Source: Bacteroidota bacterium (lineage in GTDB: Bacteria > Bacteroidota > Bacteroidia > Bacteroidales > GCA-2711565). Taken from it: a stretch of 64,000 bases of DNA. The translations under genes were made by a program, and so were the position numbers. The notes under the pieces are model-generated. The model was not told the DNA's origin. It did no database searches and was given only the letters and a program-made list of their open reading frames with translations. Shown one piece after another: positions 29,131 to 32,058 of the stretch (within the stretch, counting starts at the first letter, position 1; every line of letters begins with the position of its first letter). Where the stretch lies: NCBI GenBank assembly GCA_018816945.1, contig JAHIVC010000101.1, positions 124,001-188,000 of the forward strand. Direction: 5' to 3'.

Positions 29131-29340
29131 ATGAAACCTCTGAAAGAAAGCGAAGTTATTGTAATGGATGGTTCTGATATGAAGCTATACCCTTTTTTGC
29201 CATTTATACTGCAGGACATTTGGAAAATTGGGGCAGACCCTGATGCAATAATCATTTCGATAAGTAAGCATTTTGACAATGTGTCCGGCCTCAAAGTTTT
29301 TGATTTAGGATGCGGTAAAGGAGCAGTATCCATATTGCGG
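29131..29340 (+). pseudogene. Truncated class I methyltransferase (N-terminal part only)
   Basis: About 70 codons from ATG 29131 look genuine and end in the SAM-binding motif LKVFDLGCGKGAVSI. The frame then runs into palindromic repeat sequence (to a stop at 29514) that has no protein-like character. Everything after motif I is gone, so it cannot fold as a methyltransferase. It starts 9 bp after the AbgT stop, so it was probably the next gene of that operon before the repeat array replaced its 3' part. Confidence 0.75.
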
Positions 29341-29382
29341 CCTAAAGTGTGTGTAATAAAGAAAATTCATAAAGTTGACTAT

Positions 29383-29578
29383 CCCCGTGGCAGAGCCAAG
29401 GGGTACTTGCCTGCGGCAAGCAGGTTTCGCCAACTTTATTTCAGCAAAATGCTGAAAACCGAATTTTCATTATTTCACCCCTCTGTCAGTCTTTCGACTG
29501 ACATCCCTGCCTGACGGCGAGGCAGGTCCCCTGAATATCAGGGGAGAGTAATAGGAAACCTCGCGGCAAGCCACGAGG
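29383..29578. repeat. Array of seven consecutive perfect or near-perfect hairpins
   Basis: Stems at 29383-29403 (CCCC-GGC/GCC-GGGG), 29406-29420 (CTTGC/GCAAG), 29439-29457 (TTTCAGCA/TGCTGAAA), 29484-29503 (TGTCAGTC/GACTGACA), 29506-29526 (CCTGCCT/AGGCAGG), 29527-29545 (TCCCCTGA/TCAGGGGA, touching the previous one) and 29559-29578 (CCTCG-GGC/GCC-CGAGG). They replace the end of the methyltransferase gene and stop 38 bp before the antiporter gene. Looks like a composite of intergenic palindromic elements. Confidence 0.85.
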
Positions 29579-29616
29579 AATTGTTTGATTAAAAAACTTA
29601 AATACCGAAACAACTA

Positions 29617-31599
29617 ATGCACTTACCATTACTTCAAGACATACTCATCCTTTTAGGATTTTCGGTCGTTATAGTATTTGTACTTCAACGACTGAAACTT
29701 CCTTCTATAATAGGTTTTCTGCTGACAGGAGTCATAATTGGCCCCTATGGATTAAGCCTCGTAGAAGCGGTTGAACAAGTAGAAATTTTATCAGAAATTG
29801 GGATAATACTGTTGCTATTTGTTATAGGAATGGAATTATCTATCAAACAACTGGTTTCAATCAAAAAAACGGTCTTCGTTGGTGGATTTTTGCAGGTCGG
29901 TATTACCGTTCTCGCAGCAGGACTTATTTATTACGTTTTAGGTCATTCATGGAACGAATCGGTTTTTATTGGTTTCCTTTTTTCTTTGTCAAGTACAGCA
30001 ATCGTACTAAAAACCTTACAAGACAGACAGGAGATTTCAACACCACACGCAAGAAATGCGTTGGCGATTTTAGTCTTTCAAGATATCATTGTGGTACCAA
30101 TGATGCTTATTACCCCGCTAATCGCAGGTGAATCAACAAATCTAACTTTAAGTATTCTTTCCCTACTTGTAAAATCGGCAGTTGTTCTCGTAATCACTTT
30201 TATTAGTGCACGGTATATTGTACCAAAGTTGATGCATACGGTTGCAAAAACTAACAGTAAAGAACTTTTCCTGTTGGTTACCTTCACTCTCTGTTTTGCG
30301 GTTGCCTTTCTTACATCAGAAGCTGGCTTATCTTTGGCACTAGGTGCCTTTATTGCAGGGCTAATCGTTTCTGAGTCAGAGTACAGCCATCAAGCAACAA
30401 GTATTATCCTGCCTTTTCGAGAACTATTTACCAGCTTCTTTTTCGTTTCTGTGGGTATGTTACTCGATTTTAGCTTTTTTCTGAATAATATTCCCGTTAT
30501 CTTGCTATTGGTTATAGTTGTATTCTTGCTTAAATCATTGATTGCAGCAATAGCTGTTGCAATTCTCAAATATCCAACAAGAACTGTTCTTTTGACAGGT
30601 TTATCACTTTTTCAAGTTGGGGAGTTTGCATTTATTCTTTCAAAAGTAGGCATAGAATACAACCTATTAAATACTCAATCCAATCAATATTTCTTAGCCG
30701 TTTCAATTGTGTCGATGATATTGACACCGTTTGTGATTATTGCTTCCGAGAAAATTACCAGCAGATTTATAGGAGTTTCAAAAAAGCTAGGACTTAAGGG
30801 TATCTTTTTCTCAGAACAGGGTAGAGTAGAAATTCCTGACAAAGAATTAGAAAATCATTTAGTTATAATTGGATATGGGGTGAATGGTAGCAATTTGGCA
30901 AAAGCAGCCGCTTCGAGTGACATTCCCTTTATCGTTATTGAAATGAATGCTGAAACGGTTAAACATGAAAAAGAAAAGGGTCTGCCTATTATTTTTGGTG
31001 ACGCAACTCAAGACCATATTCTCGAAACTGTACATCTTTCAAATGCCCGAGCTGCTGTAATAGCCATATCAGACAACCTTGCTACAAAAGCCATCATAAA
31101 AAATATTCGGACTTATTCTGATTCGCTGTATTTAGTTGTAAGGACAAGGTATGTTAATGAAACATATGAATTAATTGCTTTAGGTGCAGATGAAGTAATT
31201 CCAGAAGAGTTTGAAACTTCGGTACAAATATTCACTTATGTTCTTCAAAATTTTCTTGTAACAGAAGGCGAAATTGACCAACTCATCGAAAAGGTCAGGG
31301 CCGACAATTACCAATTATTCAAAGGTGAATTAAAACGTCCTAAAACCTACCGACCGAAAAACTTCGCAGACTTCAATATCACATGTTTAAGAATGACCGC
31401 TGACAGTAATAAATTTTTAGGAAAACCACTAAAAGAATTGAACCTAAGAGCCGAATATGGAATAAACATCTTGGGTATCAAAAGAAGAAATAAAATGATG
31501 GAAAGCATACAGCCGGAAGAAATATTAAAACAAGATGATGTGATTTATATTCAAGGAAATCAAAGAAATATAGAACAGTTCCATAAATTGATAAAATAA
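29617..31599 (+). CDS. KefB-type monovalent cation:proton antiporter with RCK domains (CPA2)
   Basis: 660 residues. Sodium/hydrogen-exchanger membrane domain of about 12 helices (1-380) with RLKLPSIIGFLLTGVIIGPY, GLSLALGAFIAGLIVSESEY and LSLFQVGEFAFILSKVGIEY. Then comes a TrkA-N nucleotide-binding domain with VIIGYGVNGSNLAKAAASSD (about 412-431), and a TrkA-C domain at the C-terminus (about 580-660). Predicted K+ (or Na+) efflux in exchange for protons, gated by ligand binding to the RCK part. Intact. Confidence 0.93.
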   Translation: MHLPLLQDILILLGFSVVIVFVLQRLKLPSIIGFLLTGVIIGPYGLSLVEAVEQVEILSEIGIILLLFVIGMELSIKQLVSIKKTVFVGGFLQVGITVLAAGLIYYVLGHSWNESVFIGFLFSLSSTAIVLKTLQDRQEISTPHARNALAILVFQDIIVVPMMLITPLIAGESTNLTLSILSLLVKSAVVLVITFISARYIVPKLMHTVAKTNSKELFLLVTFTLCFAVAFLTSEAGLSLALGAFIAGLIVSESEYSHQATSIILPFRELFTSFFFVSVGMLLDFSFFLNNIPVILLLVIVVFLLKSLIAAIAVAILKYPTRTVLLTGLSLFQVGEFAFILSKVGIEYNLLNTQSNQYFLAVSIVSMILTPFVIIASEKITSRFIGVSKKLGLKGIFFSEQGRVEIPDKELENHLVIIGYGVNGSNLAKAAASSDIPFIVIEMNAETVKHEKEKGLPIIFGDATQDHILETVHLSNARAAVIAISDNLATKAIIKNIRTYSDSLYLVVRTRYVNETYELIALGADEVIPEEFETSVQIFTYVLQNFLVTEGEIDQLIEKVRADNYQLFKGELKRPKTYRPKNFADFNITCLRMTADSNKFLGKPLKELNLRAEYGINILGIKRRNKMMESIQPEEILKQDDVIYIQGNQRNIEQFHKLIK

Positions 31600-31689: not shown

Positions 31690-32058
31690 CACGGCTGCTG
31701 GTGCAGGGGTTTAGATAAATATCACGAAGATAAAGAAGTAAATGACCTCCTCGGCAAATACTTCTACTTTGTGAAAATGGATATTGAAAAAAATGCAGAT
31801 GGAAAGACTATTTATGAGATTTATGGCACCGGAGGTACACCCTCGTGAACCATATTTAATACAGCGGGAGAAGTTTTGATTAACAGCGATAGTGGAACCG
31901 GAAATATAGGTTTTCCGGCAACTGAAATTGAACTTGCACACTATGTTATTGCAATGAAGAAATCCATTCCAAATTTAGGTGATCAGGAAAGTGTATTTTT
32001 GGTTTCAAAGTTGAAAGAATACAGAAAGAGAAAATTGGAAGGGCAATTGGAGAAGTAG
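31690..32058 (+). pseudogene. Thioredoxin-like protein remnant with in-frame stop
   Basis: The frame reads HGCWCRGLDKYHEDKEVNDL (active-site-like CWC, normally CGWC), then GKYFYFVKMDIEKNADGKT, GTGGTPS, TGA, TIFNTAGEVLI and on to LKEYRKRKLEGQLEK. The TGA replaces the tryptophan expected in PSWTIF, a single-base nonsense change. A further stop precedes the CWC motif. The order matches thioredoxin-fold proteins of the Thioredoxin_7 type. No start codon survives. Confidence 0.75.

Follow-up and report, generated by a model that had tools for sequence, protein, structure and literature searches.

The row of seven hairpins at 29383-29578 of the window (the whole 64,000-nucleotide stretch of DNA that was analysed) is, we conclude with high confidence, a PATE-like, non-autonomous element of IS200/IS605 type, presumably mobilised by a Y1 transposase acting in trans. 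This assignment has a computed basis in the dispersal of the copies, their ends, the mode of insertion, conserved folding, guide-target covariation and the presence of transposase-bearing relatives with the same left end; we infer, in addition, single-stranded transposition, the identity of the transposase and a role for hairpin 1 as the right-end signal. An earlier note on this DNA had offered, among other guesses, a composite of several palindromic elements; that guess came closest, as the stems do recur jointly, but they do so as one mobile unit. The features of the element and its surroundings are as follows.

29131-29334, + strand: first 68 codons of a methyltransferase gene, a 5' remnant cut short ahead of the element
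29356-29588, - strand: the whole element, 233 bp, very probably non-autonomous and of IS200/IS605 type; placed by the ends of related copies and by empty sites
29356-29359, - strand: presumed site of cleavage at the right end, reading TTAT (ATAA on the + strand); placed by two clean empty sites
29383-29403, - strand: hairpin 1, presumed right-end imperfect palindrome, from its position and its resemblance to the right ends of transposase-bearing relatives
about 29406-29424: hairpin 2, internal; missing, enlarged or interrupted in other copies
29439-29457, no strand assigned: hairpin 3, internal
29484-29503: hairpin 4, internal; shorter in one subfamily
29506-29526: hairpin 5, internal; many copies are without it
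29527-29545, no strand assigned: hairpin 6, internal
29559-29578, - strand: hairpin 7, left-end imperfect palindrome
29579-29582, - strand: left-end guide AATT, the 5' foot of hairpin 7, from covariation with the target and the same placement in transposase-bearing relatives
29589-29592, - strand: target tetranucleotide TTAA, flanking host DNA; its letters vary among copies and it is present in empty sites

All seven stems that the earlier note had placed in 29383-29578 were located, each with a different sequence, and two of them do touch, hairpins 5 and 6 abutting at 29526/29527. The boundaries of that segment did not hold: the element runs from 29356 to 29588, and the seven-hairpin segment is most of it, not all. 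Its ends are ATAAAG... and ...GTTTGA, with no terminal inverted repeats in the aligned copies as judged by eye, and the - strand carries the left-end and right-end signals. The 233 bp contain no transposase ORF, and the element is therefore classed as an IS200/IS605 derivative and not as an IS; a 127-aa ORF that enters it had no Pfam match. Folding as RNA on both strands, a check that the note had proposed, gave structures for 29350-29620 far more stable than shuffles (z = -7.4 on the + strand and -8.2 on the - strand), and folding of 29356-29592 with DNA parameters gave z = -9.0 and -8.7, respectively; in both cases none of 200 shuffles was as stable. Arms at 29361-29377 pair with 29431-29438 and 29461-29468, thereby enclosing hairpins 1-3.

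Copies of the element are dispersed in the window's own genome (G000) and in its sibling (G002), which rules out a plain local cluster of terminators. At least 24 matches to the segment were found in G000, where 40 of 77 first-look candidates were scored, and five of these, the window copy included, are 94-100% identical over almost the full length. A left-end pattern allowing up to three mismatches occurs 17 times in this genome, and the reversed control pattern 0 times. Among six genomes of the family, G000 has 24 matches, G002 has 41 and G004 has 2, with none in the other three; not every match in G000 and G002 is a separate copy, some copies being hit as two pieces, and the two matches in G004 (which, with G003, belongs to the same genus) are confined to a stretch of some 23 bases in hairpin 2. 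In the alignment, full-length copies start with ATAAAG, end with GTTTGA and are flanked on that side by TTAA or one of its variants. The stems thus recur together as one unit, in G000 and in other genomes, as the note had asked to be checked. Some copies are not shared between G000 and G002, indicating that the element moved after their split.

An alignment of 32 of the 36 near-full-length copies (termed A1; L078, L086, L087 and L102 were omitted) was used to build a covariance model, with which 393 genomes of the order were searched, five candidates being scored per genome. Matches with E <= 0.001 were obtained in 16 genomes, the strong ones in G000, G002, G180, G206 and G216, with four families represented. 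The other 11 gave weak matches of at most 56 bits and were excluded as members, since several that were inspected share no more with the family than a CCCCTCTG...AGGGGAGA core or the ends. A DNA search found 15 matches in G180 and at least 40 in G206 (40 candidates scored), and no match in the diverged G216. Many G206 copies lie at contig starts or ends (e.g., L212, L213, L220 and L221); as contigs of this genome often end in the element, its true copy number is probably higher than listed. This patchy spread fits a mobile element. Searches of plasmids and phages with the segment gave no match, nor did a scan of viral contigs with the exact 21-base left-end pattern.

Several copies are rearranged. 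In L088 (G002:C76) and L096 (G002:C158), a further non-coding element (ends GTGTCATACTTCA... and ...GAAGAAATACAC) splits hairpin 2, at a different position in each copy; it is perhaps a small element with a preference for this hairpin. A second hairpin repeat (...GAGGTATCAATTTGGAAATTCTTTTTATTGA...GCATCGGAGTACCTGCC...) is found at two places, upstream of the L009 copy and in L018, where it is fused to the element at a common hairpin as if by hairpin-hairpin recombination. Terminal-only versions of about 60 bp, L027 (G000:C24) and L163 and L164 (both G180), consist of the left arm, one hairpin and the right end, the core between the end hairpins being missing. Finally, L120 and L136 (G216), L121 (G282), L126 (G133) and L127 (G172) have similar ends (hairpin, GAATT, ATTAAA) and different cores, which suggests a wider group in the order.

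The fold is conserved among the copies. For hairpins 1, 3, 4, 6 and 7 and the two enclosing arms (the often-absent hairpins 2 and 5 were omitted), pairing is kept in 90.6% of the cells of A1 versus 33.6-49.4% when the partner is slid. Changes on both sides of a pair were found in 47 cells, compared to a shuffle mean of 19.7 (0/500 shuffles as high) and 8-23 with the partner slid. Two of the five covariation measures do not exceed shuffles: the number of pairs with a double change (12 versus 9.6 shuffled and 5-13 slid) is not outstanding, and further pair types show no excess (43 versus 43.3). The note had named a lack of recurrence and covariation as what would speak against its observation, and the opposite was found, relatives showing compensatory changes. 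A hint that conservation extends to higher rank comes from the G216 copies, from another family, in which by eye the layout is kept with quite different arm sequences. With DNA parameters, 29 of 32 copies fold more stably as the - strand, and mismatches that are A-C on the + strand (hence G-T on the - strand) outnumber the reverse, 84 versus 50. Hairpins 2 and 5 look dispensable, as copies without them exist.

On the - strand, the start of a copy reads TTAA (target), then TCAAAC, AATT and hairpin 7. The pairing rule that we applied to this arrangement was taken from IS608 and has three guide-target pairs, the third of which, formed by the last bases of each tetranucleotide, is general background. 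The other two (A+16:T-3 and A+17:T-4) are those given in the accessible text of PMC5934647, where the target pairs with the tetranucleotide just 5' of the left hairpin. The rule was counted on 96 left ends from G000, G002, G180 and G206, after 44 opposite-strand rows and 8 unparsed rows had been dropped (five of the latter are G216 copies, all having AATT with TTAA by eye). It held in 74 of the 96 and was violated in 22, whereas shuffles gave a mean of 44.2 (sd 3.8) and a maximum of 59 in 20,000. In G206 alone it held in 29 of 40 left ends, and 0/20,000 shuffles were as good. Within this genome, where base composition is identical for all copies, AATT copies have TTAA in 9/9 cases, and the 30 GATT copies have TCAA (20), TTAA (4), TGAA (3) or one of three other targets (one each); the association is significant for both TTAA (Fisher 3.4e-6) and TCAA (4.4e-4). 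A C at the first target base accompanies AGTT in 2/3 copies versus 1/56 for AATT (Fisher 0.005), and AATT is found with TTAA in 13/15 copies in G000, 19/22 in G002 and 6/10 in G180. Thus, guide and target change together. Visual inspection of some of these copies had suggested the covariation before it was counted, so that they cannot serve as an independent sample; transposase-bearing loci, described below, provide a separate one.

Empty sites were sought in G000, G002, G003 and G004 with ten flank pairs joined without the element. Unbroken empty sites were found in the sibling lacking that copy for five of them (L010, L012, L056, L063 and L065). Only one flank side was found for L059 and L011, and neither was found in the sibling for L061, L068 and L091, the flanks of L091 giving a single 29-base match in G004. 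The joins of L010 (TTTTA/TTCA on the + strand, the slash marking the join) and L056 (GA/TTAG) are clean, without loss or doubling of any base. At L012, L063 and L065 a few bases next to the join differ, and the L065 site is readable also as a 3-base duplication of TAA. The element inserts without clear target duplication, two of the five empty sites being clean.

The element's own genome was considered as a source of the transposase, and its Y1 genes failed as carriers of the element's ends, which were not found near any of the four Y1_Tnp loci of G000. One of the Y1 genes there, at L031 (G000:C73), is broken and has GTGCGAAGTTTCCAAACTTCGCAC-like palindromes on both sides, like an independent REP/RAYT pair. 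A scan of Y1 loci in related genomes revealed two decayed IS200-type genes in G003, each starting with a hairpin and AATT and one also with TTAA. An unbroken stretch of the G003 protein has relatives in 20 of the 393 genomes of the order, five of them weak; with this stretch as query, G000 and G002, both of which are assemblies of many contigs, yielded no cognate transposase. Ends were examined in 20 of 30 transposase-bearing loci, ten weak ones being omitted. The left end was readable in 17 of the 20, as AATT-TTAA (12, including four copies within one genome, G211), AGTT-CTAA (4) and TGTT-CTAA (1), with no motif in the other three, and the right end in 12 of these 17, as GATA-TCAT (9) and AATA-TTAT (3), with guide and cleavage site pairing in all 12; the left parse admits only targets ending in TAA and the right only T[TC]AT followed by T, so that these counts test one variable position per end. 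The right end of L284 can also be read as AATG-TTAT, with the fourth position unpaired. The L281 protein is an IS200/IS605 family transposase by NCBIfam (127 bits versus a cut-off of 55) and Y1_Tnp by Pfam, its REP model score being 24.7 versus a cut-off of 80 bits. Compared by eye with the accessible text of PMC6006769, its motifs DHVH, WT and YVEDQ resemble subclass 1.1, and those of L029 resemble subclass 1.2. Transposase-bearing IS200 elements of the order have the same left end and code as the hairpin element; a parent transposon type thus exists in the order. The right-end guide does not follow the rule cleanly in the non-autonomous copies (AATA in 6 of 32, AGTA in 14), and hairpin 1 is for this reason a presumed right-end signal.

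In the mechanism that we propose, the - strand would fold as a single strand, with hairpin 7 at the left end and, at the right end, a structure composed of hairpin 1 and the long arms on either side of it. Both end structures would be bound by a Y1 (HUH) transposase provided in trans, which would cut at the left after the target tetranucleotide and at the right after the last bases of the element. The element would then be joined as a single strand 3' of another TTAA, with the landing site set by pairing between this target and the guide AATT just 5' of hairpin 7.

Landing sites were analysed for 27 long-flanked copies, of which five are partial and some lie at sites common to both genomes. 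None of the 27 lies inside a called frame, and the surrounding genes are in tandem (7 and 8), divergent (6) or convergent (5) orientation, with one undetermined. In seven of 47 left ends, for many of which the flank is only some 80 codons long, a frame of 72 codons or more enters the element; this frame stops at the element's first TAA in five (L024, L056, L059, L065 and L091) and further inside in L001 and L011. At L056 and L059, the sibling genes without the element have GAT TAG or GAT TAA as their last codons, compared with GAA TAA in the filled genes, the insertion having altered one residue and restored the stop. A minus-strand frame of 199 codons or more is present at five of 25 right ends; it closes on the target's own stop in four (L007, L076, L043 and L048, the first two being one shared site) and does not in L038. 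With a target TTAA and an element-borne ATAA, insertion at a stop codon can leave a gene almost intact.

Beside the window copy, the truncation of a methyltransferase gene that the earlier note had seen is real. Compared with a relative of 257 residues, the ORF at 29131 aligns over residues 1-68 only, with 69% identity up to 29334, and the homology ends 21 bases before the element starts. Far from there in the window this relative matches other methyltransferase genes (26-38% identity), its other matches being at chance level (e.g., 31690-31836, E = 0.17). Matches to the methyltransferase occur in 15 other genomes of the 393, 13 of them in frames of at least 242 codons and some weak. In G003 and G004 the upstream transporter gene is present with no such methyltransferase, and a contig scan with the fragment gave one unrelated match. 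The gene is a remnant, the rest of which may have been lost by the insertion or by a later deletion.

Other origins were weighed against a Y1-mobilised element. A REP/BIME cluster spread by a REP-associated transposase (RAYT) would also be multi-hairpin, intergenic and present in many copies, with a guide-like tetranucleotide at the hairpin foot, and other Y1_Tnp genes do exist in these genomes. Yet the guide is mostly AATT, GATT or AGTT, with GTAG in 0/96 left ends; the unit is about 180-250 bp with fixed ends and not a hairpin of 21-65 nt; the element flanks none of the four G000 loci; and the end-sharing transposase is IS200-type, far below the 80-bit REP cut-off. We consider this reading very unlikely. 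A MITE of an ordinary DDE transposase, to which we give almost no credence, would account for a short, dispersed, non-coding unit and could draw on the L065 site, but it was rejected as failing both defining features: no terminal inverted repeats are seen, and two clean empty sites lack a duplication. Guide-target pairing also argues against it.

A structured RNA was another guess of the earlier note. Strong folding and compensatory changes would fit a conserved RNA of this kind, either an independent transcript or a leader of the antiporter gene. The guess found no support, the best match in Rfam 15 having 13.4 bits versus a gathering threshold of 50 (E = 0.66). Promoter-like sites are at chance (2 versus a shuffled mean of 1.8), the 27 copies stand in all gene orientations, and fixed ends, empty sites and guide-target pairing are transposon features, all of which makes an RNA gene highly improbable. 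Once landed, the element might be useful to its host by terminating transcription or stabilising mRNA 3' ends, which is possible though we would not expect it: several copies start exactly at a stop codon, and a consensus scan, which bears also on the note's third guess of a transcription block, gave one terminator-like match, on the - strand only (shuffled mean 0.4), but the stop-codon position follows also from the target TTAA and the element-end ATAA, and such a role would be a side effect and not an alternative origin.

The reading as a non-autonomous IS200/IS605-type element places the hairpins closest to the PATEs, palindrome-associated transposable elements of Haloquadratum walsbyi. As described in the accessible text of PMC3119063, PATEs likewise have no terminal inverted repeats and no target duplication, are too short for a transposase and have near-terminal palindromes in common with IS605-type transposons, the counterpart here being hairpin 7 with its AATT/TTAA; the right-hand palindrome matches IS605-type ends by resemblance only. 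That text also reports terminal-only forms arising by deletion between palindromes, as in L027, L163 and L164, and small elements inserted into palindromes, as in L088 and L096. Compared with what is described there, the present family is from another lineage, carries a number of additional hairpins in its interior and long paired arms at its right end, and shows guide variants with matching targets within one genome. Like IS608 and other IS200/IS605 members, it inserts on the 3' side of a tetranucleotide whose pairing partner is a guide at the left hairpin's foot, but it has neither tnpA nor tnpB, and its target is TTAA, TCAA or CTAA, not the TTAC of IS608 (PMC5934647, accessible text). Like the REP/BIME-RAYT systems covered in the accessible parts of PMC8266576, PMC6006769 and PMC3733652, it has non-coding intergenic hairpins, a foot tetranucleotide and Y1 enzymes, but it has no GTAG tag, its unit is larger and its ends are fixed, and its partner transposase is IS200-type, not REP-type. 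In the accessible literature, which mostly excluded subscription papers, we recognised no description of this element family.

Such elements could be mistaken for RNA genes or terminators. A more far-reaching proposal, which we regard as doubtful, is that the family spreads in genomes without its parent transposase by means of resident orphan, low-copy Y1 enzymes like those of subclass 1.2, and that its lineages repeatedly retarget in nature by mutation of their four-base guide, two guide types coexisting in one genome. Guide swapping has been demonstrated by engineering of IS608, according to the accessible text of PMC5934647. In the present family the swap is seen in natural variants, two of which share a single genome, and across dozens of insertions the target changes with it as predicted; such natural swaps make the pairing code testable from genomes alone.
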